The translations under genes and the position numbers were made by a program. Below are positions 3,382-39,442 of a DNA stretch of 64,000 nucleotides, piece after piece. Source of the DNA: Kovacikia minuta CCNUW1 (GTDB taxonomy: Bacteria > Cyanobacteriota > Cyanobacteriia > Leptolyngbyales > Leptolyngbyaceae); assembly GCF_020091585.1 (NCBI RefSeq), contig NZ_CP083582.1:1240001-1304000 (forward strand), in the 5' to 3' direction. Below the pieces are notes generated by a model. The model saw nothing but the letters and a program-made list of their open reading frames with translations, was not told the DNA's origin and did not search any database. Within the stretch, counting starts at the first letter, position 1. Every line of letters starts with the position of its first letter.

Positions 3382-3405
3382 TGATTCCCAATATAGGTAG
3401 GTGCG

Positions 3406-16005: not shown

Positions 16006-16068
16006 CGGTGTGGGTGTGAGGTGCCCACAATCCCTACTCACCAAGCCTGTCTGATGCCTACAGTGAAG

Positions 16069-16941
16069 TCACCGAGTTTGCTCATCATCCACTCTGGCTT
16101 CAATCACATCTTGAATCGCAGCAGACACATTAGATAGGAAGTTATAGCCCGTCAGGGCCTCAATTTCATCCACCGACTTTCTAAAGGACTTCCAGCTATT
16201 TTGCTTAATCCCCTGCTGGTTCGGCATCAGCACAGCAATCACGCGGCTATTTTCGGTAATACCGCTCAATCGAGAGCCAGGTTGGTCAAGCACCAGCACA
16301 ATTTTCCAGGTACTTGCAGGAACAGTCACTTTCCCCTCTGCCAGCGTCTCCTTCGCTCCCTGTTCTCCCATGCCACCCACTCCGGCGGGTCCTGCAATGA
16401 TGTAAAGCTCATGCCCCTGTTTGGTGACGAGTTCCCGGCAGTAGGCTTCGAGTTGCACCCAGGGACCACGATTGTTATCTGGGGACTGGGGGATGATGTT
16501 GGGCATCAAAAAGGTGGCAGAGTTGTCATCGGGACTGGCTCCCCGATCTTCTGAGGAAATCAGGTGCCCGCGATCGAAGCCGCTGCCTGTATAGTCTTTG
16601 GGAGTGACCCGATACCACTTCTTTGGGAGGGTCAGGTCGGCACGAAAGTCATCCTGTCGCGGAGTATTGCCTAACCAGGATTTGTTTAGCTCCCAGCTCA
16701 CCCAGTTGGGAATTCCTTTGCTGTGATTATAGGACAGGGCATATTGCCGCTTGATCATCAGGTAGTTGTCGGGCTGATCCCCTGCTCGCGTGGCACTGCT
16801 GGGGTTGCCCATGAGGAGATGAACCGAACCAAAGTTCAAATCTCCCCAGGAGACAGAGGCATGCAGGATAATCAGCAGGCAGACGAGGCTACCCAGCAGC
16901 CTCCAGCGCGATCGCCGCAAAAATCTGAAAATATTGGACAT
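16069..16941 (-). CDS. NucA-type DNA/RNA non-specific endonuclease
   Basis: 290 residues. The N-terminus is basic followed by a membrane or signal segment (LLGSLVCLLIILHASVSW), so it is exported. The domain is of the endonuclease G/NucA family: the catalytic DRGHL motif at residues 123-127 (His 126), the metal-binding Asn in NIIPQSPDNN, and conserved YIIAGPAG. It would degrade DNA and RNA outside the cytoplasm. Related secreted nucleases are well known from Anabaena, where a cytoplasmic inhibitor protects the cell. I see no inhibitor gene beside it. Confidence 0.92.
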   Translation of the reverse strand: MSNIFRFLRRSRWRLLGSLVCLLIILHASVSWGDLNFGSVHLLMGNPSSATRAGDQPDNYLMIKRQYALSYNHSKGIPNWVSWELNKSWLGNTPRQDDFRADLTLPKKWYRVTPKDYTGSGFDRGHLISSEDRGASPDDNSATFLMPNIIPQSPDNNRGPWVQLEAYCRELVTKQGHELYIIAGPAGVGGMGEQGAKETLAEGKVTVPASTWKIVLVLDQPGSRLSGITENSRVIAVLMPNQQGIKQNSWKSFRKSVDEIEALTGYNFLSNVSAAIQDVIEARVDDEQTR

Positions 16942-20734: not shown

Positions 20735-20863
20735 AGCATAGTACTCATTGGTGTTTTCACACTTTCCATCTTGCTATCAATATATAATCTACCTTATTGA
20801 AAATTCCCTCAGTTTCAAGTCGCGATCGCGCGAGGGGAGAGGGTAAAGGGCTACCAAGAATCT

Positions 20864-23431
20864 TCACGCAGAACAGGCAACCCGAAAACCGAAATGGTCG
20901 TACCTGACGACCGCATCGTTCCTGCCACGATAAGCAGAGCGGCAGAGGTGTGGATCATTGCACCACGACCCGCCGCGTAGCACTCGGCGATCTCTCTCTC
21001 TGCTAGTTACCCAGGCACTTCCATCAATCGGGGCACCCTCATAGCTCTCATGCCAGTGATCCGCACACCAGTCCCACACATTCCCGTGCATATCGTACAG
21101 CCCAAACGCATTGGCAACACCAAAGCTACCGACTGGAGTGGTTTCCTCTTGATAGATACCCTTGGGTTCAGCGCCATAAGTGTACTCTCCATTATAGTTT
21201 GCCAGGTCAGACGTAAGCGTTTCACCAAAATGAAACGGGGTTACCGCTCCACTCCCCACAGCTTCACCTGCTCTCAAGCTTCCAGCTCTAGAAACGGGGC
21301 TTGCCCGACAAGCATATTCCCATTCGGCTTCGCTGGGCAGGCGGTATTGTTTTCCAGTGTGGCGAGAGAGACGATCGCAAAACTCCACCGATTCCCACCA
21401 GGAAACTCGTTCGACGGGGCGATCGTCACCTTTGAAATTTGACGGGTCAGGCTCAAGCTCTAGATTCACCTGGGGCAATGCTGCCACTGCCCGCCACTGG
21501 CTCTGTGTTACCGGATACTTGCCAATAAAGAATGTTGAGACAGTCACCAGATGTTGGGGTCTTTCATTATCAGAGCTTTCTGTCTCGTTTTCGGGCGCTC
21601 CCATCACAAAGCTTCCACTACGGATTTGCACCATTTCTAATGTGAACCCATTTCCCAAATTTTCAATAAAGCACCAAGCTTGCTGGCGGTGGTAATGGAC
21701 GTATGAACTTGATCTGTCTCTGCGGGCAATCCAACGAGTGAATTCATTCGGAAAGTTGTTTTTGGAAACCTTTGCTTGAAAGGCTGTCGAGAATAGTTTC
21801 CATAGTTGAGGACCTACATGTTGTCTGATATAAGCCGCGCTATTAGGGCTATCATCTGCAATTTCCTCATAAGTTTTGCGATACCAGGTACCTTCCAGAA
21901 CAAGCTGTTGATCACCATTTAAGCCTTTCCCTGTCTGGTTAAGAACGATCTCCTCAGTCTTTTTAAGAACCTCTCCAATGCCTAAAATAGTTGGAGAGAT
22001 TATTTCCCTCAATTGCTGAGAATCAATTACTGCCACTTCAAATTCAAAGGCTTGCAGGTCAATTGCTAGAAATGGATCGAATGTACTTTCAAAGTTGATA
22101 GTTGCCACTTTAAACTCAAAAGTGTGCAGGGGGGGAGTTAGATCGGAATAGTCAGCACTAGGAGATCTAGGAACAATCAAATTAATTAGATCAACTAGTA
22201 TGGGCTGCTCTACTCTAAGCTGCTCTAACTCAGTCTCAACCTCATTTCTACCCTTCTCAGAGAAAAATAGGTTGATCTCTGCAACCCCATTAGCTGTTTG
22301 ATTGGAAATGCTTTGCCTACCTGCTCCAATCTCATCTAAATTTGGAATCTCATCAATATTTAGAACCTCATCAATAATATCTCGATCAAGGATTCCATTA
22401 TTAGGATATCTGATCTCCGCAGAGAAATTGATTGTGACAGATAGCTCAAAAGACACAACCTTTTCCAATCGCTCAATCAGAGTTTTTGCCAAAATCTCAA
22501 CCGAAATCTCCCCATCCTGATCCAAAATCACCTCATGAATCTCGTTTTCCCAAGGATGGACGCTCAACCGAAATTCATGCTCCTGCTGGGAAAAGGCATC
22601 TTCAATTAGCCTCCGAATAACTTCCAGGTTTTGCTCTAAAGCCTCATAAGCAAAGGCAGTTTCTTCATCTTGAACTTCCAATCTCGCGGGATGATCCTCT
22701 GGAAGCAATTCCTGCGGTAACTGTAGCGCTATATCTTCCACAATTTGAAACGAGCGGTTTAACTGTTCCCCACTCACCTGAGATGGCTCCGTCAATACTC
22801 GCCTGACTAGCTCCGCATAGGCTAACAGACTGGCATAATCATTGAGCCGGGGGGCAAGCTCCTGCGTAATCCGAGCCAGTCGTGCCATTTCTGCTCGACT
22901 GGCAGGAGATAGATTCCCTGCCGCCTCAGTTGCAGTCGCACATTCCTGGTATGCTCTGGAAATCTGGCGCACCGCCTCTGATCGCTGGTTCTCAATGTAA
23001 ACCATCGCTGCCCACTGCTGGGTTTCTAGCTCCCGCTGATCGATGTATGGGTTATTGGCAAGCTGCCGGATGTATCGAACGATCAGGCGGGCAACCGCCT
23101 CCAGCCGATCCTGACCCAGCACCTGCTCCATCTCATTCAATAAATAGGCTTTTACAGCCGCATCCATTGCATATTGCTCAAACCCCACCGGACGGCACAG
23201 GTCAGACAGCAACAAGTCAACCTCCGCAATCCAGGGAACGTTCTCTTCCCGCAAAAATTGGTTTCGCAAATAGTTGAGCAACTCTGGCGTCAAAACCAAC
23301 GGCAGCGCTGCATGGTAAGCCAGGTAGCGGTAGGACGGCTCAAAGCGACGAACGAACCGTTCCACCCGTTGTCGAGCCTGTTCCCGTTCCTGTTCCAGTA
23401 ATGCAGCGTTACTCATACGTCTGGAGGTCAA
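20864..23431 (-). CDS. Large VMAP protein: helical N-terminus, HTH, FGE-sulfatase domain
   Basis: 855 residues. Residues of about 1-270 are a long helical region (RQRVERFVRRFEPSYRYLAY; EVDLLLSDLCRPVGFEQYAM). The middle is acidic with beta-rich repeats. About 500-570 is the VMAP helix-turn-helix (VLEGTWYRKTYEEIADDSPN, QLWKLFSTAFQAKVSKNNF). About 590-855 is an FGE-sulfatase domain with PSEAEWEYACRAS, LYDMHGNVWDWCADHWH and CRSAYRGR. Its start overlaps the stop of the vWA gene by 4 bp. In vWA-MoxR-VMAP ternary systems this third member is the variable recognition or effector component; the exact activity is unknown. Confidence 0.85.
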   Translation of the reverse strand: MTSRRMSNAALLEQEREQARQRVERFVRRFEPSYRYLAYHAALPLVLTPELLNYLRNQFLREENVPWIAEVDLLLSDLCRPVGFEQYAMDAAVKAYLLNEMEQVLGQDRLEAVARLIVRYIRQLANNPYIDQRELETQQWAAMVYIENQRSEAVRQISRAYQECATATEAAGNLSPASRAEMARLARITQELAPRLNDYASLLAYAELVRRVLTEPSQVSGEQLNRSFQIVEDIALQLPQELLPEDHPARLEVQDEETAFAYEALEQNLEVIRRLIEDAFSQQEHEFRLSVHPWENEIHEVILDQDGEISVEILAKTLIERLEKVVSFELSVTINFSAEIRYPNNGILDRDIIDEVLNIDEIPNLDEIGAGRQSISNQTANGVAEINLFFSEKGRNEVETELEQLRVEQPILVDLINLIVPRSPSADYSDLTPPLHTFEFKVATINFESTFDPFLAIDLQAFEFEVAVIDSQQLREIISPTILGIGEVLKKTEEIVLNQTGKGLNGDQQLVLEGTWYRKTYEEIADDSPNSAAYIRQHVGPQLWKLFSTAFQAKVSKNNFPNEFTRWIARRDRSSSYVHYHRQQAWCFIENLGNGFTLEMVQIRSGSFVMGAPENETESSDNERPQHLVTVSTFFIGKYPVTQSQWRAVAALPQVNLELEPDPSNFKGDDRPVERVSWWESVEFCDRLSRHTGKQYRLPSEAEWEYACRASPVSRAGSLRAGEAVGSGAVTPFHFGETLTSDLANYNGEYTYGAEPKGIYQEETTPVGSFGVANAFGLYDMHGNVWDWCADHWHESYEGAPIDGSAWVTSRERDRRVLRGGSWCNDPHLCRSAYRGRNDAVVRYDHFGFRVACSA

Positions 23432-24510
23432 TCCTCATGCAGATGAGCAAGGGGTTGTCCGCGCACAATATCAATCACATTACCAAATCCATCCTCATCC
23501 ATCTGTTGCATTCGGACAAGATAGGCAATCACCTCGGCAGACGTGGCTTGCCAGCGATCGACAGGCATCGGGTTTAACCAGCCAATCAGATTGGTTCGTT
23601 GCTTGAGCTGTACCAGAAATTCTGTCGTTGCCCGAATCCGTTCCATCCGGCGATAGCCCCTGGCGGCTCCCGCATCACTCACAACCAACAGACTGGTATC
23701 AGCATCACACCCAGCGATCACCGCTTCCAAAGGCACTGGTTGAGTCAGACGAGCATCCTGATACACATAATCATCCGGCACGTTATGGAAGTAGTAAATC
23801 GCAACCCGCTCCAGCTTTCCTTCTTCCTGAACCGTCTCTACCAGATCCCGCGTAAAGCGATGGAAGGGAGTCATAGAGCCATCCTGGTCAATCAGCAGCA
23901 GTAGCTGAGCATGGTTCACCTCCCTACGACGATAGACCGGAGCCAGGAAAAACCCCTGACGGGCAGCCTGCTCCACAGTCAACTCAATATCCAGCACATC
24001 CGCTGGACCATCTGCAACCGGACGCCGCAGGTAACGCCAGATGTAAGCCATCGAACGGCGAGAGACGGGTAGATAAACGTGTAAGTCAGGGGTATTGTCA
24101 ATATCGATGGGAACGTAGGGCGATCGCACAGGTAAAGGAGTCAGGGTCGGAGCCAGATCCTGCTCAGGCGGGGGAAGTTCCGGTAATGGAGGCGGTAGCT
24201 GCTCAAGGGGTTTGGGTGGGTCGGGTAACGGGGTTTCGTCCTTTTGCTGCTGGGTCGTCTCTCTCAAAGGCGCTGGCGAAAAGTCTGCACTGATTGCTTC
24301 CCACATCACAGCAAACTGGCTTTGCTCGGCGATCGAATGGCACCAGAGCAACAGCAAAATCAGTCTGAGGGCATCCAGGCTGTCAGCACCCATTCCCCCT
24401 CTTACAGCATCCACCGCAGCCAGATATTCGCTGATACCCAGATTGAAGCCGTTCTTGCGTAAACGGCTAAAGACTGGCTCCAAAATTTGCTCTGGGTTAA
24501 ACTCACTCAT
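23428..24510 (-). CDS. vWA domain protein of a vWA-MoxR-VMAP system
   Basis: 360 residues. A helical N-terminal region (residues 1-75) is followed by a proline-rich linker (92-135, including LEQLPPPLPELPPPEQDLAP). A von Willebrand A domain starts near 200; its metal site reads DQDGS at 208-212 in place of DxSxS. SDAGAARGYRRMERI and LVQLKQRTNLIGWLNPMPVD are typical of this vWA group. The gene overlaps both neighbours by 4 bp (ATGA). It is expected to pair with the MoxR ATPase and present or restrain the VMAP protein. Confidence 0.87.
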   Translation of the reverse strand: MSEFNPEQILEPVFSRLRKNGFNLGISEYLAAVDAVRGGMGADSLDALRLILLLLWCHSIAEQSQFAVMWEAISADFSPAPLRETTQQQKDETPLPDPPKPLEQLPPPLPELPPPEQDLAPTLTPLPVRSPYVPIDIDNTPDLHVYLPVSRRSMAYIWRYLRRPVADGPADVLDIELTVEQAARQGFFLAPVYRRREVNHAQLLLLIDQDGSMTPFHRFTRDLVETVQEEGKLERVAIYYFHNVPDDYVYQDARLTQPVPLEAVIAGCDADTSLLVVSDAGAARGYRRMERIRATTEFLVQLKQRTNLIGWLNPMPVDRWQATSAEVIAYLVRMQQMDEDGFGNVIDIVRGQPLAHLHED

Positions 24511-25475
24511 GAGGCAGACGCATGCTTTTGCCAGTCAGCCCGTAGCTTAAACAGCAACTCTCGGTAGGGAACTGCCTGAGGCGACTTCAGTTTCGATACC
24601 GCATAAGGTTTAGCACCAAAGTTCTGTAAGGCATCGACCCAATCTAAAAATTCACTGGTGCCCGGAATCTTAAACAGTCCCCCCGTCCTGCGGATCTCCA
24701 GGAATCGATTAGCCGCAGCCTCTACTAATTTTTCCGAAGGGTGGGGAGTTTCTGTCTGATGGGAATAGTGAGCGGTGACAATCTCGCGTAGGCGCTCTGA
24801 ACTATCCGGGAACTTGAGAAAATAGTAGATACAGCGTCTCAGAAACGGGAACGGCAGATTCCCCTTTTCTTTATTGCTGGTGATAATGACGATCGGTCGA
24901 TGACTGGCTCGAATTTTGGCTTCACCCGTCTCACCCGTTTCGGGAATTTCAAACTCCCACGGTTCATCCAACACTGCCAGAAGGTCATTCGGAAAGTCTA
25001 AATCAGCCTTATCGATTTCATCAATCAGAACCACCGCTGGAACGTCTTTCAGACCGAATGCTTTACCCAACGCTCCAAACTTGCGGTAATCCTTAGGGTT
25101 AGCTGGATCGCGATTGAGTGAAGTGCCCGTTTCCCTTGCCTGAACATCATGCAAGCGCAAAATCGCATCATATTCGTACAGCCCTTCCCTTGCCTTACTG
25201 GTAGAGCGCACATCCCAGCGATAGAACGGCAACCCCAACTCATGGGCAACCGCAGCCGCCAAGCGTGTCTTCCCACATCCCGCCTCTCCCTCCAGTAACA
25301 AAGGACGCCTGAGATAAATTGCCAGATTGACCGCCTGAATTAACTCCTCGTTGGCAATATAGGGTTCTGCCTTTTGAGGCGAGTCCTTGTGAGGCTTCTT
25401 CGGACGGAGGCTGAGATCACCCCGAAATGTGTATTGTTTAGTGGAATTCATAGGCTCGGCTTTCTCGTGGCTCAA
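24507..25475 (-). CDS. MoxR-family AAA+ ATPase
   Basis: 322 residues. Walker A GEAGCGKT at 63-70, Walker B VVLIDEIDKA at 148-157, sensor-1-like ITSNKEKGNLPFPFLRR and arginine-finger region RRCIYYFLKFPD. The length and layout fit MoxR ATPases, which work with vWA proteins as chaperone-like remodelling pairs. The start overlaps the previous gene by 4 bp; an internal Met at residue 9 (MNSTKQYTF) is possible. It sits between the iSTAND gene and the vWA gene in a tightly overlapping operon. Confidence 0.93.
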   Translation of the reverse strand: MSHEKAEPMNSTKQYTFRGDLSLRPKKPHKDSPQKAEPYIANEELIQAVNLAIYLRRPLLLEGEAGCGKTRLAAAVAHELGLPFYRWDVRSTSKAREGLYEYDAILRLHDVQARETGTSLNRDPANPKDYRKFGALGKAFGLKDVPAVVLIDEIDKADLDFPNDLLAVLDEPWEFEIPETGETGEAKIRASHRPIVIITSNKEKGNLPFPFLRRCIYYFLKFPDSSERLREIVTAHYSHQTETPHPSEKLVEAAANRFLEIRRTGGLFKIPGTSEFLDWVDALQNFGAKPYAVSKLKSPQAVPYRELLFKLRADWQKHASAS

Positions 25476-26476
25476 CTAACCAACTTAGACATCTCATTCA
25501 TTAACTCACTATGAACATCGTTAGGTCTTCCTTTTGCAACTCGATGAATTGATTGAGCCATCTGCTTCATATCGGCAACCTGAATATTTAACCCTGAAAA
25601 CTTGACCAGCCAATTGTGGATTTCCGGCTCTGTCCAATTTTGCAGCGGCAATTCCAAAATCTTTTCTCCATGAAACGTCTGTTTCCTACAGCAAAGGGAA
25701 TTGGGCAGGGAATCTTTTGGCAAGGAGTCACGCACCATTAAAACGGCTATCAGCCGAATCAAAGGATGCTCATGACACAAGCCCGATAACCTTCTCACTA
25801 ATGGGCACCAGAACTGGTTCACAAACCAATTGAGAAAGTCATCTTGGGCGTGAAGAGAGTAAATCTCAATTTGAATATAAAAAATGTTCCCTCGACGCAG
25901 CGAACCGCAGATGCGATCGACAATCATATCCAGATACGTTTGACTATCTCCTGGAGCCTGTTGAACCTGAAACTTTTCTGCTAAGAAGTTCAGGAAAAAT
26001 TGGGGACGGGTCTGCTGGTGTGATAAAAACTCAAATTCACAGGGAGGGTACATTTTCCCCAAATCTTGAAGCTGAGATTTGATATTTTTGGCACACCACT
26101 TTGCTCCCATAGATCGACTGTTTTGCATCAGAAAGAGAGCCGCTCCCTCTTTGTTCTCAAACTTATTAAGAATACTTGTGATAATTTTATTGGCTTTTAT
26201 AAAATTAATCTTTGGTAGCTTTTCTTCCCATTCGGTGGAATAAGCTCTATAGGAGTCTGCATCACTACTTCCTGAAAACTGAAACTGTTTGATTTCTGCC
26301 TCAATTTCCTGAATTTCAACCTCTAGATTCCGAATAGAATCTCTAATAGGAACTTTATCTACTTCATTCAATGTGCCAGATAGCTGGGTATACAAAGCCT
26401 TATATTTTTGAACTAAGCTTTCTAAATATTTTTTCTTCTCTCCAATCAATGGTTGACTATTAACCAGACTTGTCAT
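25472..26476 (-). CDS. iSTAND protein with N-terminal effector-associated coiled coil
   Basis: 334 residues. Residues of about 14-65 form a helical domain (KKKYLESLVQKYKALYTQLS, then VPIRDSIRNLEVEIQEIEAE) that is recognisably the same as the C-terminal domain of the protease encoded next upstream. From about 80 on there is an inactive-STAND-like domain: ALFLMQNSRSMGAKWCAKNI, EFEFLSHQQTRPQFFLNFLA, and a late RVAKGRPNDVHSELMNE. I see no Walker A motif, consistent with iSTAND. In published systems such proteins dock onto effectors through matching effector-associated domains. Confidence 0.75.
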   Translation of the reverse strand: MTSLVNSQPLIGEKKKYLESLVQKYKALYTQLSGTLNEVDKVPIRDSIRNLEVEIQEIEAEIKQFQFSGSSDADSYRAYSTEWEEKLPKINFIKANKIITSILNKFENKEGAALFLMQNSRSMGAKWCAKNIKSQLQDLGKMYPPCEFEFLSHQQTRPQFFLNFLAEKFQVQQAPGDSQTYLDMIVDRICGSLRRGNIFYIQIEIYSLHAQDDFLNWFVNQFWCPLVRRLSGLCHEHPLIRLIAVLMVRDSLPKDSLPNSLCCRKQTFHGEKILELPLQNWTEPEIHNWLVKFSGLNIQVADMKQMAQSIHRVAKGRPNDVHSELMNEMSKLVS

Positions 26477-26492
26477 AAGTAACTATTCTCAA

Positions 26493-27371
26493 TCAGTTAG
26501 ACAATTGGTTCATCTGCTGCTCTACCTGTGAAATCTCACTGTCTAGAGCCTTAATTTGTTCTCGAATGCTTATTGCATCAGCCTGACTCAGCATGTAATT
26601 TAACTGGTTATAAGCCGCCTCATACTTGGCACAGAGAACCGAGTAGTTCTTCTTAAGCGCGTTCAGCTTAACCTGGCGAAACGAGGGTAAAGTGTCCGTT
26701 GAGTCCTTGACTGAAGGTTGCTGAGATGAGATCCTCTGCTCCACATCTGACCAGGCAGAACTGAGAACCGATGTCGGAATCATAAATGCCGCTTTGACAT
26801 TTTCCCGCCGCTTTTCGGCTGCCACCGCCATCCCCACCACCCCTTGCAGCGATTCATCCCACACAAGCGCACCACTAAATCCAGGCTCTACCTGATAACC
26901 CGCTGCCTTAATATCTTCTATCTGTATCCAGCCATTTGCCCGCTGATCGCGCAGAACCCCACTTGCCCAAACTCCCTCATCATGCCCCTTCGGAAATCCA
27001 AAAATCCTGAAAGGGTGCCCCCAGTAATCACTCGTTTTGAGCAGCCGGACAGGTTGAACAGCCTCATGGGACGTGTCTTCCAGCTCCAGCCCCGCGATAT
27101 CTTCCCCTAACTGGGACGGATTAACAGGTTGCCAAAATTTCACGATTGCCCTCTTCCGTTGCCCTGCGGCAACCAGTGGAAAATCGAGTTCGATCGCTCC
27201 ACTAGGTATCTCTTGGGTATTCTGAGGAAGACCGAGCGCAACCGTCACTACATGAGCACAGGTGAGAAGTTGGCGATCCGATATCAAAAACCCCGCTCCT
27301 ACAACCGCGTTTCCCTGGTAAATGCGGGCGATCGCTGATCTGAAACTGCGAATGTAATTCTCTGGGGACAT
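26493..27371 (-). CDS. Trypsin-like serine protease with C-terminal effector-associated coiled coil
   Basis: From the ATG at 27371 (MSPENYIRSFRSAIARIYQ) the product is 292 residues; longer readings run into the previous gene. The protease part has the His of TCAHVV (residue 40), an Asp in GEDIAGLEL and a Ser in GFSGALVWD, so the triad looks complete. Cytoplasmic, since no signal peptide precedes the domain. The last 55 residues (LNALKKNYSVLCAKYEAAYN, then ISIREQIKALDSEISQVEQQ) match the N-terminal domain of the iSTAND protein. I infer an immune-type protease effector activated through that shared domain. Confidence 0.87.
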   Translation of the reverse strand: MSPENYIRSFRSAIARIYQGNAVVGAGFLISDRQLLTCAHVVTVALGLPQNTQEIPSGAIELDFPLVAAGQRKRAIVKFWQPVNPSQLGEDIAGLELEDTSHEAVQPVRLLKTSDYWGHPFRIFGFPKGHDEGVWASGVLRDQRANGWIQIEDIKAAGYQVEPGFSGALVWDESLQGVVGMAVAAEKRRENVKAAFMIPTSVLSSAWSDVEQRISSQQPSVKDSTDTLPSFRQVKLNALKKNYSVLCAKYEAAYNQLNYMLSQADAISIREQIKALDSEISQVEQQMNQLSN

Positions 27372-27384
27372 AGCACACCGATTC

Positions 27385-27715
27385 CTAATCCTCTTTCCAC
27401 TTGAGGGTAATTTCAAAGTTGACATCCCCACCCACTGAAGCGATGATTGCCCCTGCCTCAGCACTCAGACTTCAGACCAAACTTGACCTCAACCTCATTA
27501 GCAGGTGTCGTCAATCCCCTTTTCAATTTAGAAATCAACACGGAAGCCACAGGCTTCACAATTTCAATCGCTTCTTCAAAGGACTCCCTCGCCTGAAGCA
27601 CCATTTGCCCTGTATCGATGGCAACCCGTTCAACTGCAACCCCTTCGGGTTCATCAACTTCCACCAGAAATTTAGTGCCATCCTCTAGAGAGAACTGAGC
27701 AATTTCCTTATCCAT
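27385..27715 (-). pseudogene. Trypsin-co-occurring (CU044_2847-like) protein gene with a frameshift
   Basis: The frame from the ATG at 27715 reads DKEIAQFSLEDGTKFLVEVD, later FEEAIEIVKPVASVLISKLK and EVEVKFGLK, and then stops at 27458. Skipping the single base at 27469 continues it as LSAEAGAIIASVGGDVNFEI and TLKWKED to a stop at 27385-27387. This is the normal ending of CU044_2847/trypco1 proteins, small partners that accompany trypsin-like proteases in conflict systems. The base could be a true mutation that disables the partner, or a sequence error. It sits 13 bp before the protease gene. Confidence 0.8.
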
Positions 27716-30283: not shown

Positions 30284-30874
30284 CTATCGTTGCTGCTTCC
30301 GGTAATCCCACGGTCGCTGATAATTTCCTGCCCACACTCCCAGATGCTTTGACTGAGCCAGCCGCTCTGCTTGAGCGATCGCTTCCCGGTTGGGGCAACT
30401 ACCAGAATAGCGGGTGTACTCATAAGCCATCCCGGATGCCACCATCTCGTAGTTGATGAATCGCTCCTGCTCTGGTTGCTCACGGGTCGGTGCTTTGACA
30501 AAAACTTCTCCAACGGTACGACCGTACCGATCCTTCTCCACAGAAACTACCATCACCTGATTGTTGGCACTGGCAAGCAGCGATCGCAGCTTCTCCCTCG
30601 CTTCCTTTCCAAACGGCTGCCCCAGATTACGACCGTGAGCAACTTCCGGCGCATCAATCCCACACAACCGGATCGTCTCCCGCCTCCCACCACTCTGAAC
30701 TTTGATCGTATCCCCATCACTCACCCTCACCACCTGCCAGCTTTCCGACTGGGAAAACCGCGATTGCTGCCAAACCCCACTTCCCAAATGGGCAATAATT
30801 ACTGCTATCACACAGACTAATCCCACGATCGCAACCAAACCCCACCGAACTTTCACAGCATCCCCCATTCGCAC
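30284..30874 (-). CDS. Thermonuclease family protein (staphylococcal-nuclease-like), membrane-anchored
   Basis: 196 residues. The N-terminal membrane segment at 12-30 (LVAIVGLVCVIAVIIAHLG) exports or anchors it. The SNase domain follows: WQVVRVSDGDTIKV, the active-site Arg in ETIRLCGIDAPEVAHGR, FGKEAREKLRSLL, then KDRYGRTVGEVFV with the second Arg, and a C-terminal Cys/Tyr-rich piece with WDYRKQQR. All key residues are present. It degrades nucleic acids outside the membrane. It lies tail to tail with the pentapeptide gene. Confidence 0.9.
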   Translation of the reverse strand: MRMGDAVKVRWGLVAIVGLVCVIAVIIAHLGSGVWQQSRFSQSESWQVVRVSDGDTIKVQSGGRRETIRLCGIDAPEVAHGRNLGQPFGKEAREKLRSLLASANNQVMVVSVEKDRYGRTVGEVFVKAPTREQPEQERFINYEMVASGMAYEYTRYSGSCPNREAIAQAERLAQSKHLGVWAGNYQRPWDYRKQQR

Positions 30875-31020: not shown

Positions 31021-31641
31021 ATGAACAAAACACTTGTGAGGAGAGCTGCTGCTGCTCTTGGTCTAATTGTGGCGATCGCACCTACCCTGGCTCAAGCTGC
31101 CCCTGCCAGCTACGCCCCATTTAAGGACTCTGAAGGTAACATCTGGATTTCGGGCACTCCCAATACTGAAACCATTGTCACCTTTGGGTCAGTCGAAAAA
31201 ATGAAGGATGTTAAGGCTGATGCTTGTGGGCTGGTCAAGCTAACTCCTTCCACCTCAGTTCCCCTAACCTCACCATTTAGAGTCGATGGCACGACGATCA
31301 ATCCCGCTACTCTCAGCACAGATATTCTGCCCAAATGCACCAATGGCACCCTGGAACAATCCCGACCCAGTAACTTTAAGACCTCGGATGGCAAAATCTA
31401 TGTGGTCGGTAAGACTGCTGGCAGCTACTACAAACTTGCCTACAACGTGCCTGTCGAAAAGCGGGTCAAAGCAAATGCCTGTGGAATTGGGCGGATTGCC
31501 AGCAGTGCTTCAATCCCCTTCACATCAACGACTCAGTTTGCTGTAGGAGTTAATGACCCCATCACCTACGGCAATCTCTCAACCAGTGAACCCTGGGTCT
31601 GTCGTAGTGGTGTGACCTACATGCCCTACGGTGGCACCTAA
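31021..31641 (+). CDS. Secreted protein with two tandem repeats of unknown function
   Basis: 206 residues. A signal peptide (RRAAAALGLIVAIAPTLAQA) is followed by two related domains of about 85 residues. Each opens FK-S-G-I, contains a KADACG/KANACG-like segment and a final Cys (ILPKC and EPWVC). Two cysteines per unit suggest one disulfide each. A ribosome-binding site (GGAGAAAC) lies before the ATG. A terminator follows at 31672. The protein family is not recognised; an extracellular or surface role is inferred from the signal only. Confidence 0.7.
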   Translation: MNKTLVRRAAAALGLIVAIAPTLAQAAPASYAPFKDSEGNIWISGTPNTETIVTFGSVEKMKDVKADACGLVKLTPSTSVPLTSPFRVDGTTINPATLSTDILPKCTNGTLEQSRPSNFKTSDGKIYVVGKTAGSYYKLAYNVPVEKRVKANACGIGRIASSASIPFTSTTQFAVGVNDPITYGNLSTSEPWVCRSGVTYMPYGGT

Positions 31642-32757: not shown

Positions 32758-32793
32758 GCCCTGTTGAGATTTAATTGTTAAACAGGGCTTTAT
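32758..32793. terminator. Bidirectional terminator between convergent genes
   Basis: GCCCTGTT (32758-32765) pairs with AACAGGGC (32781-32788), a perfect 8-bp stem, followed by TTTATT on the plus side and preceded by an A/T-rich strand usable on the minus side. It separates the small membrane protein from the leftward operon that ends at 32790. Confidence 0.7.
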
Positions 32794-33794
32794 TCATTAT
32801 CTGTCCCCAGTACCAACAGTTTCACCCGTGCCAGTTGCGATCGCAGCCGTGCCCACTGTCGGAACGTCTCTGCCTTCTGCTTATCCATCGCTGACAGGTT
32901 CCCCAGATAGCTAACGGTGTTGCCGTCGCCGAATCGATACCCGACCTCAATCACCTTCATCCGCAACACTTCCCGTTTAGCAATTTCCTGGCTCACCTGA
33001 AAATCCCGCCGGATGGTATCGAAGTCCAGCACTTGCAGGATCACCTGTTCCCGTAATTTATCCTTCAACTCATCCCGTTGCTTCTCCACTTCGGCAACCT
33101 TCACCTGGAGGTCAGCGATCGCAATACTCCGCTGTTGAGCTGCGGCATCCCCACCCGTGAGGTTCCGAAACAATGGAACGCCCACCAGAGAAAGGATTTC
33201 ATTAATCGTTCCAGTGGGTTTTACGAAGAAATCAAACACTCGATCGAGGAATCCCCGTTTCCTCGGTTCCTGCCCCTGCTGCACAGGTACATCTTCCACC
33301 TTCAGATAGCTCTGTACCAATGGCTCAAATACACTGAGCGCGATCGTCTTCTGGTTGTTCTTCTTCGCCTCATCAATTTTCTGATTGATTACCGTAACCC
33401 TTTCATCAATTGCCTTCAACGTTTTGGAACTGGCGATCGCCCTTCCCTGCAACTGTCTAATACATGCTTCAGTTGCTTCCAGACAGGGCAGTTCCCCTAA
33501 CATCGTTTTCCAAACATCATCGTTGAACTGCATCTGAATCAGTTTGTCCAACGAATCGCCAGCCGGGTTGAGGGGATTGGGATCGGTTTTGAGAGCGTCC
33601 GGGTCATCAGCAACCGTTGGCTTTTGATCACTCTCTTCTTCAGGTGGTGGCTCATCACCTGGAGACATTTTCACCTGGGGCGTTGTTGATTTTGCCGGGG
33701 GAGACGGTTGGACTTGGGGGGGGTTGGACTGCGCCAGGGTGGGAACTGATGTCAGCCACAACCAAAACAAGCTCCACACTAAGAGCCTGGTCAT
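32790..33794 (-). CDS. Secreted coiled-coil protein, last gene of the HerA/TraD-like operon
   Basis: I start at the ATG at 33794 because MTRLLVWSLFWLWLTSVPTL followed by AQS is a clean signal peptide. The product has 334 residues: a proline/acidic linker (PPPEEESDQ), a region with two Cys (ELPCLEATEACIRQLQG), and long coiled coils (DLQVKVAEVEKQRDELKDKL; LDFDTIRRDFQVSQEIAKRE). It overlaps the upstream lipoprotein gene by 140 bp in another frame. A periplasmic scaffold for the operon's export-like machine is possible; no family is recognised. Confidence 0.7.
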   Translation of the reverse strand: MTRLLVWSLFWLWLTSVPTLAQSNPPQVQPSPPAKSTTPQVKMSPGDEPPPEEESDQKPTVADDPDALKTDPNPLNPAGDSLDKLIQMQFNDDVWKTMLGELPCLEATEACIRQLQGRAIASSKTLKAIDERVTVINQKIDEAKKNNQKTIALSVFEPLVQSYLKVEDVPVQQGQEPRKRGFLDRVFDFFVKPTGTINEILSLVGVPLFRNLTGGDAAAQQRSIAIADLQVKVAEVEKQRDELKDKLREQVILQVLDFDTIRRDFQVSQEIAKREVLRMKVIEVGYRFGDGNTVSYLGNLSAMDKQKAETFRQWARLRSQLARVKLLVLGTDNE

Positions 33795-34587
33795 TCTGCC
33801 CACTGAACTTAATGCGTTGAATTCTGCCACTGTAAGGACTCCTGACCGCTGAAAGGGTGGATAGTTGGGTTTCAACCTGGGATAGTTGCCCCTCCAGTTG
33901 GGCAAGCTGCCCTTGCTGCTGAATCTCCTGTTGCCGCAGGGAGATCGCCCGTTTACTCATCTCCAACGAATGCTCATACTCCTGAAATTGGCGATCGTTC
34001 TCTGCCTTTGCCAGTTTCCCCTTTGCCGTTTCCACCTCTGCTAATGCCTGGTCGAGTAGCCGTTGTTTTTGATCCAGCAAAGCCTGCTCATGGGGAATCG
34101 TCGCCTCTGGTAGATCACTTTTTGGCATCGACTGAAGCAGATCTAACTTCCGTTGCTGTTGTTCCTTCACCCGTTGGGCATCGGTTGCCTTAATCTTGAG
34201 CCGTTCCACCTCTGCCACCTCTGAAAGAAAGGAGGATGTGGGCAATCCTGCTACTTCAGGTATAGGCTGCTCCAGTTGCAACCGCAATCGTTTGATCTGC
34301 CCCTGTAACTGCTGCTGCTGGAACTCCAGGCGAGAGCGATCGTGCACCCGATCCGCAATAATCTGCCCTTCCTGCACCTGATTACCTTCCTGCACTTTCA
34401 AATCATTGGGACTGCTCAATGTCAGCTTGATCTGAAACCGTCTCTGTGGGGCAACATCAACACTCTCAGTGGGGGGATTAACTGAAGCGGTGGGACTGGG
34501 TAACGATTGCGAGACAGCCTGAGCTGTACAGCCCGAAAGAATCAAGCCAATGCCCCACCAGCAATAACGAGCCACATACTGTTTCAC
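33655..34587 (-). CDS. HlyD-like coiled-coil lipoprotein
   Basis: I start at GTG 34587, which overlaps the stop of the ATPase gene (GTGA) and gives a lipoprotein signal with the lipobox LILSGC. The body has long coiled coils (LEFQQQQLQGQIKRLRLQLE; LAQLEGQLSQVETQLSTLSA) enclosed by two half-lipoyl-like segments (LKVQEGNQVQEGQIIADRV and SPYSGRIQRIKFSGQN), the layout of membrane-fusion (HlyD) proteins. It would sit on the outer face of the inner membrane as part of a transport or secretion device. Confidence 0.75.
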   Translation of the reverse strand: MKQYVARYCWWGIGLILSGCTAQAVSQSLPSPTASVNPPTESVDVAPQRRFQIKLTLSSPNDLKVQEGNQVQEGQIIADRVHDRSRLEFQQQQLQGQIKRLRLQLEQPIPEVAGLPTSSFLSEVAEVERLKIKATDAQRVKEQQQRKLDLLQSMPKSDLPEATIPHEQALLDQKQRLLDQALAEVETAKGKLAKAENDRQFQEYEHSLEMSKRAISLRQQEIQQQGQLAQLEGQLSQVETQLSTLSAVRSPYSGRIQRIKFSGQNDQALSVELVLVVADISSHPGAVQPPPSPTVSPGKINNAPGENVSR

Positions 34588-35681
34588 TGCACCCTCTCGT
34601 AATAGGGAATAATGTCTACCTGTTTGGCATCTGTCCCAAATCGACACAATGCCTGGAGTGGTTGCAGTCCTGCCACCTTTGCCTCAGCAAACCGGAACTT
34701 TTTCGCCACCCTGCCCACCTCAGTTTGATCAACTGGAAGCACAATCTTGGTACTAGAGTTCCCAATTACATCGGCTGAGAGATGCCGCTCCGATTGGGAG
34801 GCAAGCATCAGAGCCAGCCCATACTTCCGACCGTCCGCAATAATGCGATCGCAGGCTGACCCCTTCCCATTCGGCATCTCCTTCGCCTCATCGATGCCCA
34901 AAAAGGTTCGAGGAATTTTGCCCGTCATCTCCCCCAGCAGCCGGTGATTATCCATCAATTGCTTTGCCAGCGACTCTGCCGCGATCGATTGAATTGCCGG
35001 GGGCAACTTCGACAGGTCAACCCGAATATGTTTGGCATCCAGGGGAAACTGGGGACGGGAAAACACCCCATATTGAAACGTTGCTGCCAGCTTCAGCCTT
35101 AACCGTTGGGATTCCTTACAGCCTTCCTCAATCCGAGCCTGTAACTCTTGTTCCACATCAGCGAAGTTGGGCGGCTCCTTAGACCAGGTAGCTTGCTCTG
35201 CCTGAACGATGCCCCTCTGCCGATAGCAGGCACCCAAGACATCGAGTAACATCCCTTCCTGATTCGGTCCCATTTGTAGCGACTTCTTGAGTACCGCAGC
35301 AACCGCGATCGCCTGCAAGTTGGGTCCGCCTCCCTCTGGGTCCAGGTTCACCATTAGCGGATTGATGCCCCAGGGAGAAGTCATGTGCAGCGGATAGACG
35401 GTTTCGCCCTCGATATCCTGATCACCGTGGAAGTCAATTAAAATTTTTTGCGATGCCATATATATAGTTAGCAGCGCATAAAAAAATCCTTTGAGGGTTT
35501 GCGTTTTACCACTACCAGAGGCTCCAATGCAGACTGTGTGGGCATTTGGGAGCTTTTCAGGATTCCAATAAACACCCCTTCCCAGCAGAATGCCGCTGCT
35601 CTCCGTACCCTCATTCCCTCCCCTCTGTCTGACTGGAAGTACCGCGATCGGGGGCAATGGCTTCTCATTACGGCTGAACAT
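34584..35681 (-). CDS. HerA/TraD-like P-loop ATPase
   Basis: 365 residues. Walker A GASGSGKT at 53-60 in the setting NAHTVCIGASGSGKTQTLKG, KILIDFHGDQD as the first acidic strand, RTFLGIDEAKEMPN as Walker B, and ALMLASQSERHL as the sensor-like end. This is the layout of FtsK/HerA-superfamily ATPases such as TraD coupling proteins and VirB4-like motors. No membrane segment is present, so it would be recruited by the neighbouring membrane proteins. It overlaps both neighbours (4 bp and 14 bp). Confidence 0.82.
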   Translation of the reverse strand: MFSRNEKPLPPIAVLPVRQRGGNEGTESSGILLGRGVYWNPEKLPNAHTVCIGASGSGKTQTLKGFFYALLTIYMASQKILIDFHGDQDIEGETVYPLHMTSPWGINPLMVNLDPEGGGPNLQAIAVAAVLKKSLQMGPNQEGMLLDVLGACYRQRGIVQAEQATWSKEPPNFADVEQELQARIEEGCKESQRLRLKLAATFQYGVFSRPQFPLDAKHIRVDLSKLPPAIQSIAAESLAKQLMDNHRLLGEMTGKIPRTFLGIDEAKEMPNGKGSACDRIIADGRKYGLALMLASQSERHLSADVIGNSSTKIVLPVDQTEVGRVAKKFRFAEAKVAGLQPLQALCRFGTDAKQVDIIPYYERVQ

Positions 35682-36702
35682 GGATCGACCTCACAACTAG
35701 GTTTCCGGTAGCAAAGGCTTCTCCCAGGACTGCCATCACTTCACCCGGAGAAGCAGACTCCAGTTCAATCTGTTCGCCAAACTGTTGGATGGGTTGAAAG
35801 TATTGTTTGGAACCATGCAGACTAATTTCAGCCCGGTCTAATGCGTCAATCGTGAGTCTGCCTGAGATGTAGGTATGGGGCAGTTTCAGGGGAGCGATCG
35901 CCGCTCTTACACTCTGGTTATCGAGAAACACCTCACGAGTCACCAGGGCGATCGCTGCCCTGACCGTGACTTGTACTTTTTCTGGGGCAATCTGAGCTTC
36001 TGGGCTGCTACCTACTCGATACAGCCTCGCCTGTGAGTCCTTCACCAACAAATCCTGGTTAACCGTACCGATGACCTCATAGCTACCTGCGATCGCCTGT
36101 TGGGTGATCGTATGCCGTCCCTGGATATTGGCAAATACCTGATGCTTGCTGCTCTCCCGCTGGTAGATTTCCATCGCTCCAGACTGGGAGCCTAACACCT
36201 GGTCAAAGCTCCGCATGATACCACCTGCGCTGTTGATATTGATGCTTACAACTGCGACCAGCACTAGCACACCGAGCACGATCGATTCTGCTTTACTACC
36301 GCTTGCCAGTCTCAGCCGGGGGTTTGCCGGGATGACGAGCCGCGCCTGGTGGGGAAAGAATGCAGCAACCCCAGATTTTGTGAACACATCCCCAAACCAG
36401 CCCATCCAGTAGCCAATCACCAGTGCCCAGTAGAACTCGGACTTGTTGAAGTACCACAGGGGCAGGAGAGCGATCGCCACTAGCAGGGTTGCCAGAAAAC
36501 TATGAGTAGCGGATCGATGGGGATAGCGGGCTTCGAGCCAGCGGCTAACTGGAAAGAAGATTCTGCCGGGGACACTGCCTGTCGTATCAATGTCGGGCAG
36601 TTGGGAAGCGATCGCCGCTGTGCCCAATACCCAGGGGTCAGATGTACCCATCAGCAAAGACGTAGACGCGATCGCCAGGGTGGCATGAGTCACGGATAGC
36701 AT
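35668..36702 (-). CDS. DUF457/YdjM-type membrane protein with extended C-terminal domain
   Basis: 344 residues. The N-terminal 185 residues are a DUF457 membrane domain with conserved acidic and His residues (HATLAIASTSLLM, SQLPDIDTTGSVPGR, RSATHSFLATLL, WMGWFGDVFTKSGV), related to metal-dependent membrane hydrolases. The C-terminal 160 residues are soluble and beta-rich (SYEVIGTVNQDLLVKDSQAR; KVQVTVRAAIALVTREVF) and are not part of the usual family. The gene shares one base with the AAA gene upstream. The role within the operon is unknown. Confidence 0.78.
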   Translation of the reverse strand: MLSVTHATLAIASTSLLMGTSDPWVLGTAAIASQLPDIDTTGSVPGRIFFPVSRWLEARYPHRSATHSFLATLLVAIALLPLWYFNKSEFYWALVIGYWMGWFGDVFTKSGVAAFFPHQARLVIPANPRLRLASGSKAESIVLGVLVLVAVVSININSAGGIMRSFDQVLGSQSGAMEIYQRESSKHQVFANIQGRHTITQQAIAGSYEVIGTVNQDLLVKDSQARLYRVGSSPEAQIAPEKVQVTVRAAIALVTREVFLDNQSVRAAIAPLKLPHTYISGRLTIDALDRAEISLHGSKQYFQPIQQFGEQIELESASPGEVMAVLGEAFATGNLVVRSIHVQP

Positions 36703-37511
36703 CAGCCCAACCTCGCAGACTTCTTGGGCAATGAGTAGAAGATCAGCCGCAGGATGCCCACACAGACGGTCAGGATGCCACCGATCAGGTACATGCTGGT
36801 AGAGTTCAGCCCAATCCCCACCACCCGCACAATCCCGAATACCATCAATGCTGCAATCAGGTAAGGGGTGCCATCAATCCACTGGGTATGGTCGGGAGCG
36901 GTATCCTCCAGTCCCAGATACTCTTCTTCAATCACCCGCTTTGCCAGCATGGGGTTGCCACCGCAGCGCTGCTGGAGTCCTGCCAGTTGAGCCGTACTGA
37001 TACTTAATCCAACTTCTAAGGCATGAGCTGCCATGATGTCTCGGATCTGGATATCCGTCATCGGTTTGAGTTCCAATCGGGGCAGTTTCAGGAAAATGTC
37101 TTTGGCGGGAGGTGCGGTTGCCAGCAGCAATAGGGGTTGATTCTGCTCATGCAGGATTTCCAGGAAGCGGCGAAACTCTGGCGTATAGTGGTGGGCACTA
37201 TCGCAAACGAGGAAAGCGGTATTCGCTTGCAAGAATTGGGCGATCGCATGCCTGAGTCCCACAGTCGATAGGTTCTTCCCTTCCAGGTCTTGAGTCTCTA
37301 CACCAAGTTGTTCAGCAATGCGGGTGAGCAGTTGCTTGGTACTGGCAGGTTGAATCAGGGCAACAGAGTAGCCTTCATCCTTCAGTTCCTGGGCAACCGC
37401 TTCACCCAACATACTTTTGCCAATACCAGCCTCACCCACAATCAGCAGGCTTGACCCTGAACGCAGAACTGCGGTAATCCTGCGTTTTTCAACGACACGA
37501 TAGAGGTTCAT
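36702..37511 (-). CDS. ExeA/TniB-like AAA ATPase with C-terminal membrane segments
   Basis: 269 residues. Walker A VGEAGIGKSM at 25-34 and Walker B-like FLVCDSAHHY at about 100-109, followed by LLLLATAPPAKDIFL and a C-terminal lid (AGLQQRCGGNPMLAKRVIEE). Two membrane segments at about 215-260 (LIAALMVFGIVRVVGIGL; LIGGILTVCVGILRLIF) anchor it. The soluble part resembles ExeA/TniB-type ATPases, which power secretin assembly or transposition. It is the next gene after the frameshifted small gene and just upstream of the DUF457 gene. Confidence 0.78.
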   Translation of the reverse strand: MNLYRVVEKRRITAVLRSGSSLLIVGEAGIGKSMLGEAVAQELKDEGYSVALIQPASTKQLLTRIAEQLGVETQDLEGKNLSTVGLRHAIAQFLQANTAFLVCDSAHHYTPEFRRFLEILHEQNQPLLLLATAPPAKDIFLKLPRLELKPMTDIQIRDIMAAHALEVGLSISTAQLAGLQQRCGGNPMLAKRVIEEEYLGLEDTAPDHTQWIDGTPYLIAALMVFGIVRVVGIGLNSTSMYLIGGILTVCVGILRLIFYSLPKKSARLG

Positions 37512-37513
37512 GG

Positions 37514-38015
37514 TCAGGCCGCTTGCGTTTCAACCAGTTGGCGAGAGGTCTTCCAGCGGGCGATCCGCTCGTCTGCTGCACCCTTCCCCGGTTTGCTCTT
37601 TGATATACCCAATCAGTTGGGGGTAGGTCTTCAATCCTTGCTGCCATGCTTCATCAAGCAATGCCTCAACCAGTGTTGAGCGATCGGGTTTGGATTGGTT
37701 TTCTTCGATTTGTAGTTCTGGCAGGGAATCAAAAATTTGTTGCAGGTCAGTACTTTGCTCAAGCTCTGGTGCTGTTGGAGGGAGGGAAGGAACCATTACA
37801 GCCGCGACAGTTTCAGCGACCTGAAGGGCTTCCCTTTCCGTGGCAGAGAGTGTTGTTGAAATCGTGACAACCGTTTCAGGTTTTCTTACCAGTGCTGGCA
37901 TGGGTCGGCTGATGGGTAGAGGTTTACGCCGTTGCTGTCGAGCCACGATCGTGTGGTGAATAGCAATTGCGACTAACCATAAGCTCCGTAGGGTTTTTCT
38001 CAGAATGATCATCAT
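37514..38015 (-). pseudogene. Small operon gene with single-base frameshift near its 3' end
   Basis: From the ATG at 38015 the protein has a hydrophobic start (LRSLWLVAIAIHHTIV), a polar middle, and then the conserved-looking YPQLIGYIKEQTGEGCSRRA. There the frame derails at GCGGATCGC. Removing one G of the pair at 37565-37566 (which recreates the HIP1 core GCGATCGC) continues it as IARWKTSRQLVETQAA to a stop at 37514-37516, just before the ATG of the AAA gene. The ending resembles a helix-turn-helix recognition region. It overlaps the preceding gene by 92 bp. Confidence 0.6.
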
Positions 38016-38337
38016 CGTCAGTTCCAGGAATGTTTGACATGCCTACTGGTACTGACCAAGCAAGCGCTAAAACCATGCAAGAAACACTGATTTTGCTGAC
38101 GTTCTGTATGAATTTTTGACGAAGGTAGTATCGTCGTCCCGTCTCTTCCCGTTGGGAGTAGATTTGCCGTTCAAAGATCAGGTTTTCGGTTTGCCGTCTT
38201 ACCTGCTCATAGGTAAGCGTACCGTTGGAGGCTTTGACAATTTCGTTACGGGTGAGTCCGTCTTGTTCTTGGAGGACTTCGAGGAGTTGCGATCGTGTTT
38301 GTTGACCCTGCTGGGTCGTTTCATAGATGCTGAACAT
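37924..38337 (-). CDS. Winged-helix protein, first gene of the HerA/TraD-like operon
   Basis: From the ATG at 38337 (MFSIYETTQQGQQTRSQLLE) the product has 137 residues: a winged helix at about 12-65 (LLEVLQEQDGLTRNEIVKAS, then LTYEQVRRQTENLIFERQI and RRYYLRQ), one membrane segment (ISVSCMVLALAWSVPVGMS), and an acidic His-containing tail. It could be a membrane-tethered regulator of the operon. The C-terminal 30 codons overlap the next gene in another frame. Confidence 0.65.
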   Translation of the reverse strand: MFSIYETTQQGQQTRSQLLEVLQEQDGLTRNEIVKASNGTLTYEQVRRQTENLIFERQIYSQREETGRRYYLRQKFIQNVSKISVSCMVLALAWSVPVGMSNIPGTDDDDHSEKNPTELMVSRNCYSPHDRGSTATA

Positions 38338-38586
38338 ACACAAGTGGTGAAACAATACTTCACCCTTGCTGACAGGTACCAGGAGTTCAAGTCAATCGTG
38401 GAAATCCTGACATCAGAGAGTTTTCACAAAAGTACTTGACAAAAGATATACTGATCCATGTTGTCACCCCTTTTCAGCGCTAATAAACTGCTGAGTGAGT
38501 TTAGGCGGATTCGGGGAGATTTTGGGGAAGAGGTTCCTACAGGTTTCTAAAAGTCCTAAGCCACAAAGGTTTTACAGACTGGCTGG

Positions 38587-38644
38587 GCAGACTCGAAATC
38601 TGTTTTGGGGCAACCCAACGGGGGTTCGAATCCCCCCCTCTCCG
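38587..38644 (+). tRNA. 3' fragment of tRNA-Ser(CGA), probable attachment site
   Basis: The anticodon stem GCAGA/TCTGT encloses loop CTCGAAA with anticodon CGA at 38594-38596. The long variable arm TTGGG-GCAA-CCCAA is typical of serine tRNAs. The T arm GGGGG-TTCGAAT-CCCCC and the 3' acceptor strand CCTCTCC plus discriminator G end at 38644. The 5' acceptor strand and D arm that should precede 38587 are absent: the upstream bases do not pair. I read this as the copy of the tRNA 3' end left by site-specific integration, marking the right end of the accessory region. Confidence 0.75.
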
Positions 38645-38980
38645 TTTTTAGAAGCTAGTCTGGCTGTATATTGTGGTATCGATCGCCGATTGATAGGCGT
38701 GAAATCGCCCGGAACCAGCGATCTGGGCGATGCAACACCTAAGCAAAATGTAGTTCAATCGCGATCGTCAGCGTGGCACCAGAGTATTCTTTATCACCTT
38801 CATCCGGTTTCTACCCTAGCTTTTGTGATCACTCCATCTCTCAATAGTGGTGATCCCTATCTCTTTCGAAAGCAGGGTTAATTACTATTTGAGGTTTATT
38901 AACTTTCATAAAGGAAGCAGAAAGCAGCTTCTACTCTGGCTCTTAAGCCAGGAGGTTGACGAATTTGTTAGGAGATCTTT
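38645..38980. other. Intergenic region after the attachment site
   Basis: No gene seen. HIP1-type sites occur at about 38680 and 38760, and an AGGAG ribosome-binding site precedes the ATG at 38981. The promoter of the carotenoid protein gene must lie here. Confidence 0.4.
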
Positions 38981-39442
38981 ATGACTTATACCGTTGATAA
39001 AACCACGCAGGAAGCTCTGAATGCATTTAAGCAATTTGATGTAGATACTCAGCTTGCTTTGCTGTGGTTTGGCTACTTGGATATCAAGGACCAGCTCCAG
39101 CCTGCTCCCCCCAATTCCGTCGCTGAACCTGCAAACGCAGTATTTGACCAAATTAAAGCGCTGCCTCAAGAACAACAATTGCAGGCGCAACGGGATATTG
39201 CCAATTGTGCCAATACTCCCGTTAGTCGCGCCTACGGTGCTCAAAGCGCCAATGGCAAACTGCAAGTCTGGCTATCCCTGGCTCAGGGGATGGAAGAGGG
39301 CACGATCATCAACCTGCCCGAAGGCTACCAGCTTCCCTCTGAAACCAACAATTTTGTGAATCAGGTGAAAGGGCTGAGCTTTGAACAGCGAATCAATTTC
39401 TCGCTGAGCGCTGTAGAAGCAATGGGAGCGACAGTCCGGTAA
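38981..39442 (+). CDS. Helical carotenoid protein (OCP N-terminal domain homologue)
   Basis: 153 residues, all of it an orange-carotenoid-protein N-terminal domain without the C-terminal regulatory domain. Family signatures: [18 protein letters not shown] (with the carotenoid-contacting Trp/Tyr), a central [33 protein letters not shown] and [14 protein letters not shown]. These stand-alone proteins bind a ketocarotenoid and act as singlet-oxygen quenchers or, in one clade, as permanently active quenchers of the phycobilisome. I see no carotenoid ketolase or fluorescence recovery protein nearby. Confidence 0.92.

Follow-up and report, generated by a model that had tools for sequence, protein, structure and literature searches.

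A motor-and-envelope gene cassette of cyanobacterial plasmids and a chromosomal island: a possible relaxase-free DNA-donation machine

Relaxase-free transfer of DNA by motors of the FtsK kind has been described in Thermus and in Streptomyces. The Thermus element ICETh1 is integrated at a tRNA gene, and DNA donation to competent recipients depends on its FtsK-HerA ATPase TdtA together with nucleases (PMC5365140); in Streptomyces, the FtsK-type motor TraB transfers DNA without a relaxase (PMC5365140). Judged by the current model, immobile plasmids seem to make up 88% of those of cyanobacteria; reports of transmission exist for pCC7120alpha only, and an unknown conjugation mechanism has been proposed for cyanobacteria (PMC8600333, citing Smillie 2010). 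Here, a seven-gene cassette is described from a 64,000-nucleotide stretch of the genome of Kovacikia minuta CCNUW1 (contig NZ_CP083582.1, positions 1,240,001 to 1,304,000), called the window below. The cassette may encode a relaxase-free machine for donating (secreting or transferring) DNA, used by cyanobacterial plasmids and their integrated forms, and we hold the chances for and against this reading to be even. No description of the cassette was found in the literature searched, which consisted of open-licence papers.

The minus strand from 38337 to 32790 holds seven open reading frames, all present and overlapping or nearly so, just as an earlier note made from the window's sequence had stated in describing a seven-gene operon with overlaps or minimal gaps. 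The motor gene, g5, has one copy in the 8.56 Mb host genome. The genes are as follows.

g1, 37924-38337, minus strand: winged helix-turn-helix protein with one C-terminal transmembrane (TM) helix, read from an ATG start (a TTG start extends it to 38355)
g2, 37530-38015, minus strand: small adaptor with a C-terminal helix-turn-helix (HTH), its C-terminus frameshifted in the window copy
g3, 36702-37511, minus strand: AAA_22 (ExeA/TniB-like) ATPase with two C-terminal TM helices (PF13401, 1.6e-14)
g4, 35668-36702, minus strand: YdjM/DUF457 membrane protein with an extra C-terminal domain of ~180 aa (PF04307, 2e-22)
g5, 34584-35681, minus strand: HerA/FtsK-superfamily ATPase motor, 365 aa, no TM helix
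g6, 33655-~34584, minus strand: HlyD-like periplasmic adaptor with the lipobox LSGC
g7, 32790-~33794, minus strand: secreted helical protein, short and provisionally TolC/OEP-like

The motor has intact Walker A (GASGSGKT) and Walker B/DEAKE motifs, and the Walker motifs are invariant in the alignment. In a profile search of the PDB its closest solved structure was DptH (7es4, 4.8e-21), HerA structures followed at 7e-12 and weaker, and EccC/YukB were among the weak matches. PADLOC returned mad8 (5e-19) and DndH (2e-18), and CedB/CedD were also matched weakly (2-3e-8). DptH of Dnd restriction, Mad8 of MADS and HerA are therefore the nearest motor relatives by sequence, but their partner genes and context are wholly different. 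Like the motors of type IV conjugation (VirD4-VirB4-relaxase; pCC7120alpha), g5 matches PF10412 (TrwB_AAD_bind; 21.4 bits, cut-off 20.5); unlike a VirD4/TraD coupling protein, it has only 365 aa, lacks the transmembrane domain of type IV coupling proteins and lies closest to DptH/HerA in the PDB, and no relaxase, VirB4, VirB6-10 or pilus genes were found with the cassette. TraB, a protein of monoderms, works alone and binds DNA through a C-terminal motif of its own, whereas g5 is a soluble motor with neither a TM helix nor an extra C-terminal domain, accompanied by adaptors that are proteins in their own right and by a pair of diderm envelope proteins. The earlier note would have given way had the genes belonged to a known conjugation system; searches of Pfam, NCBIfam, PADLOC, PHROGs and the PDB brought up none, and the motor matches in them were at superfamily level only, to HerA/DptH/VirD4-like ATPases.

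In three lineages (Gloeocapsa, Stanieria and G005) the motor holds an in-frame GIY-YIG nuclease domain at a single site, the Stanieria domain scoring 32.5 bits against a cut-off of 22.6. It may represent a functional fusion or else a homing insertion that became domesticated. These motors lie at the following places.

L026:15001-16416: motor with GIY-YIG insertion
L045:3729-5147: motor with GIY-YIG insertion
L123:10001-11461: motor with GIY-YIG insertion

Upstream of the motor, g1 is predicted to be a membrane-tethered DNA-binding protein. Its TM helix lies at residues 89-107 of the 143-aa reading, it is 64% identical to g1 of the related locus L023, and a winged helix-turn-helix followed by a C-terminal hydrophobic segment stands at the same position in Synechocystis plasmids and L040. 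The small protein g2 had been called frameshifted, and it is: the frame of the window copy departs from the '...CSRRAI.xWK' HTH ending kept in L022 and L023. In many plasmids the protein before g3 is an adaptor with a common C-terminal domain and exchangeable DNA-binding N-terminal domains, which in two cases match KfrA_N over the Pfam cut-off. In L025, L035, L036 and L045 the HlyD-like g6 carries at its N-terminus a fused HTH that is homologous to the g2 C-terminus, and in three of the four a TM helix is predicted between the two parts. The TM helices of g3 were placed at 217-235 and 240-258, and the protein is 84% identical in L023 and 39% identical in pSYSX. In the g4 alignment the H6, PD..D and HR..TH residues are invariant.

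For the envelope pair, the alignment of g6 conserves a split lipoyl motif flanking a coiled coil, an arrangement typical of HlyD-like adaptors. Its matches to TIGR01730 (9.6e-5) and DevB (1e-3) both fall below the NCBIfam cut-offs, and NCBI calls one orthologue a 'HlyD family secretion protein'. In g7, LPC..C and YxxG motifs are conserved. PF02321 (OEP) matches 7 of 17 g7 members, at best with 1e-5, one orthologue passes the Pfam cut-off, and several are named 'TolC family protein' by NCBI. The product had earlier been described as a secreted coiled-coil protein; secretion stands, and the rest is corrected to a short protein that appears to be TolC/OEP-like. PDB profile searches with g4, g6 and g7 gave nothing relevant. 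Tripartite exporters (type I secretion, RND efflux) likewise have HlyD-like and TolC-like proteins encoded side by side, but in the cassette a HerA/FtsK motor and AAA/YdjM membrane proteins replace the pump, no ABC, RND or MFS pump being found among the seven genes (Pfam, NCBIfam), and g7 is about half the size of TolC. The cassette lacks features that define type IV secretion system (T4SS) conjugation, type I or RND exporters, TraB, and Dnd/MADS/HerA defence.

The distribution of the cassette was followed in a phylum sample of 386 cyanobacterial genomes, in which the motor (E<=1e-10) was present in 17. All 17 have g4, and 16 have g7, the exception being S. elongatus G036. A survey of the motor's neighbourhood, proposed in the earlier note as a check on whether the genes travel together and near integrases or relaxases, covered 36 cyanobacterial loci; about 24 of them (not all independent), pSYSX of Synechocystis 6803 included, have a five-gene core running g3-g4-g5-g6-g7 along a single strand. 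All 14 cyanobacterial module plasmids examined were typed non-mobilizable. Protein identity across the phylum is roughly 22-84%, varying by gene. The same cassette recurs phylum-wide and so is not a chance assembly. The close plasmid relatives are all cyanobacterial, namely pSYSX, S. elongatus plasmids and plasmids of Nostoc, Anabaena, Tolypothrix, Fischerella, Microcystis, Gloeocapsa and Stanieria. ParA/ParB genes often adjoin the module on plasmids. ArdA/ERF and a protein with an ArdC-like zincin domain are also found on module plasmids and suggest a transfer lifestyle.

Some relatives are partial or distant. L058, L059 and L060 have divergent g3, g4 and g6 (two also an adaptor, g7 and SNase), with no recognisable motor family member genome-wide, and at L061:8070-10409 (minus strand) g3, g4 and the C-terminal part of g6 are joined in one open frame, the motor being deleted. 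Distant motor relatives stand on proteobacterial plasmids (L053:11977-13269, L054:11944-13428), the one of Paraburkholderia adjoining ParAB and the one of Pseudomonas being a DUF5710 protein; the cassette is absent beside these homologues. Viral contigs gave no homologues of g4 or g7, and one distant motor relative within a long Dnd-like protein.

At least two further genes of the window, a secreted protein and a membrane-anchored thermonuclease (SNase), probably belong to the wider module.

g8, 31021-31641, plus strand: secreted Cys-containing protein, 206 aa, probably accessory
SNase, 30284-30874, minus strand: thermonuclease (PF00565, 2e-24) with a TM helix or signal at N-terminal residues 13-31, probably accessory

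An SNase gene lies within 15 kb of the module in 8 of the 17 motor genomes, against 0.29 expected (P~1e-9). Genes for Endonuclease_NS, in the genomes that have them, mostly share a replicon with the module (G105, G125, G233, G058, G083). In about 18 of the 36 loci, as also in the window, g7 has a g8 homologue as its neighbour, usually encoded on the other strand; this count excludes L027, whose protein is not a true family member and had entered the alignment by position. Both g8 and SNase bear their own Sec-type signals, and one module plasmid carries a nuclease A inhibitor gene.

In K. minuta the cassette lies at the right end of an island, and no other feature separates it from the right attachment site.

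38584-38651, plus strand: right attachment site, a duplicated tRNA-Ser(CGA) 3' part of ~68 nt

This fragment is 97% identical to the 3' part of the intact tRNA-Ser(CGA) at C1:1238092-1238178 (L052:6092-6178), 1.8 kb left of the window, and a tyrosine recombinase gene (phrog_1, 1.8e-11; PF00589 weak) follows the intact tRNA, also left of the window. With the intact tRNA and recombinase on the left and the duplicated 3' end on the right, the element is therefore ~40.5 kb long. The earlier note had placed the cassette beside the tRNA end of the island; it does lie at an island end, but one with only the duplicated tRNA-Ser 3' fragment, and ARAGORN found no tRNA inside the 64-kb window. The association with mobile elements proposed there is supported, the cassette being on plasmids or in this tRNA island. 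The island proteins scanned, which took in every candidate of sufficient size apart from what is evidently an IS30-like transposase, included no relaxase, VirB4 or T4SS component. Integration at tRNA genes is not general, since none of four chromosomal copies checked has a tRNA adjoining the module; an intact tRNA-Pro ~180 bp from g1 in L023 was not taken as proof of integration. In family relatives compared via ChlH for an empty site, the locus is not syntenic.

Thermus transjugation is the best functional precedent. ICETh1 likewise occupies the 3' end of a tRNA gene, where it has direct repeats, and carries a site-specific recombinase (PMC5365140, PMC7767461); it also has an FtsK-HerA superfamily ATPase, linked nuclease genes, and neither a relaxase nor a T4SS. 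Its motor operon, however, has a NurA-like nuclease and TthHB27I, whereas the genes of the cassette operon have other domains; ICETh1 has not been described with a HlyD/TolC-like pair, an AAA-TM protein, YdjM or DNA-binding adaptors, all of which the cassette has. The cassette is also mostly on replicating plasmids, and its role in donation is a proposal. The two share only a general plan.

A working model can be drawn from these parts. The membrane-tethered g1 and the HTH/KfrA-type adaptor g2 would mark the DNA of the element and deliver it to the AAA protein g3 in the membrane. There g5, which is presumed to sit as a hexamer on g3 and g4, would pump the DNA across the inner membrane, and g6 and g7 would form the passage through the periplasm and outer membrane. 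Periplasmic SNase, or the motor-built GIY-YIG domain in some lineages, may cut or trim the DNA, and the recipient would take it up via natural competence. Gene anatomy, conservation, linkage, mobile context and the domain fusions are observed, whereas the DNA cargo, its outward direction, the conduit, the part played by SNase and the uptake by competence belong to the model. A distinct bacterial class of DNA translocation might then be recognised, in which a HerA/FtsK motor, inner-membrane AAA/YdjM proteins and a HlyD-TolC-like conduit export plasmid DNA without a relaxase, the nucleases (SNase or motor-inserted GIY-YIG) replacing relaxase processing; we consider this somewhat less probable than not. 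The system appears to be undescribed, and its novelty would lie in its architecture.

The earlier note's reading is in this way upheld in part. Its trans-envelope device is supported, and its statement that a relaxase and the usual type IV genes are lacking agrees with the island scan and the plasmid typing. Where it left the choice between DNA and protein movement, DNA is favoured as the cargo because of the GIY-YIG domain in the motor, the DNA-binding/KfrA adaptors, the HTH-HlyD fusions and the membrane-tethered winged-helix g1. Its reduced conjugation helper is not borne out, since neither the island nor the plasmids that were typed showed a conjugation system to be helped, and its defence machine finds no backing in the neighbourhood.

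Several observations weigh against DNA donation. The motor is present in only ~4% of the sampled genomes, S. elongatus plasmids do without g7, and G060, G058 and G083 have related g3/g4/g6/g7 loci with no detectable motor. In the window, the frameshift of the adaptor g2 falls inside its HTH and may impair this copy of the machine, and no convincing oriT-like or iteron repeats were found beside the operon. In hhalign, g7 aligned to the host TolC and 15 OEP domains in a plausible register that was not significant, and an unrelated coiled-coil alignment (A2) used as a control scored above it. The AlphaFold2 models of g7 (pLDDT 48) and g4 (pLDDT 40), each built from only 3-4 sequences, were discarded; both being unusable, the machine gains no structural support from them. 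The TolC assignment of g7 is provisional because the profile-profile tests were not significant and its model failed. We know of no precedent for DNA passing through a TolC/HlyD conduit, and the case for donation is made from sequence analysis throughout.

The usual cargo of HlyD and TolC is proteins or small molecules, and the motor could instead be an ATPase like EccC of type VII secretion, driving g8 or a nuclease out through g6 and g7. The EccC/YukB matches, the linkage of g8 and nucleases to the module and the nuclease A inhibitor gene agree with such protein secretion, but g8 and SNase need no extra exporter given their Sec-type signals, the cassette has no ABC transporter or peptidase gene, and the motor GIY-YIG and DNA-binding adaptors indicate DNA; we judge it unlikely. 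DNA would also be handled if the cassette served envelope-anchored plasmid maintenance or segregation, with adaptors on a centromere-like site and g3 and g5 moving or tethering the plasmid, as the KfrA_N-type adaptors and neighbouring ParA/ParB genes might suggest. The plasmids concerned already have ParAB, however, partition needs no HlyD-like or secreted TolC-like protein, and the cassette occurs in a chromosomal island too, which makes this rather unlikely and places it next after secretion.

The direction could also be reversed. A machine for DNA import, with its secreted or periplasmic nucleases acting on the arriving DNA in the manner of competence, would resemble the crenarchaeal Ced importer, in which a HerA/VirB4-like ATPase (CedB) serves DNA crossing the membrane; the weak CedB/CedD matches of the motor and the association with SNase and Endonuclease_NS would fit. 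Beyond that weak motor match no CedA was seen, however, and the direction proposed here is opposite. HlyD/TolC assemblies operate outward, an importer would not promote the spread of the element carrying it, and competence genes are chromosomal in cyanobacteria, so that import appears improbable. Least probable, and only slightly credible, is an anti-phage or anti-plasmid defence of the HerA/DptH/MADS type. It draws on the mad8 and DndH matches and on DptH as the closest structure, but a PADLOC scan of the seven genes found no DptF/G, mad1-7, NurA, Sir2 or DUF4297 partners, the actual partners are envelope and secreted proteins, and the cassette is conserved on plasmids beside replication and partition genes. 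Defence on the strength of those PADLOC matches was rejected on gene context.

Other features of the window were recorded alongside. A stray relative of the plasmid adaptors has the N-terminal DNA-binding domain only, without the module-specific C-terminal domain.

12427-12999, plus strand: stray relative of the plasmid adaptor (profile match 4.5e-18, residues 10-89)

Within the same island, 19532-27464 (minus strand) encodes two FGE-sulfatase-domain proteins, VWA/CoxE, an AAA ATPase, and iSTAND-EAD9 and trypsin-EAD9 proteins, and looks like an NTPase/protease conflict system. At 2953-5133 (plus strand), an nSTAND1 NTPase of 575 aa is preceded by a small protein with the same N-terminal motif, the pair being a possible conflict module. 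An M23 peptidase adjoins an Endonuclease_NS nuclease at 15502-16941 (minus strand) in the island. Just outside its right end, 38981-39442 (plus strand) probably encodes a helical carotenoid protein, an identification made by eye.

For cyanobacteria, the DNA-donation reading touches on exchange already seen in the laboratory. In Synechocystis, live donors pass plasmid and chromosomal markers to competent recipients in a largely DNase-sensitive manner, and Synechocystis 6803 is the strain of the published comEA-minus donor assay (PMC10667661). Since the cassette is on pSYSX of this strain, the proposal is directly testable. The cassette is a concrete candidate for the spread of plasmids called 'immobile' and may explain such spread. 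If DNA does pass through the HlyD/TolC-like conduit, this would be a new route for DNA across the diderm envelope.

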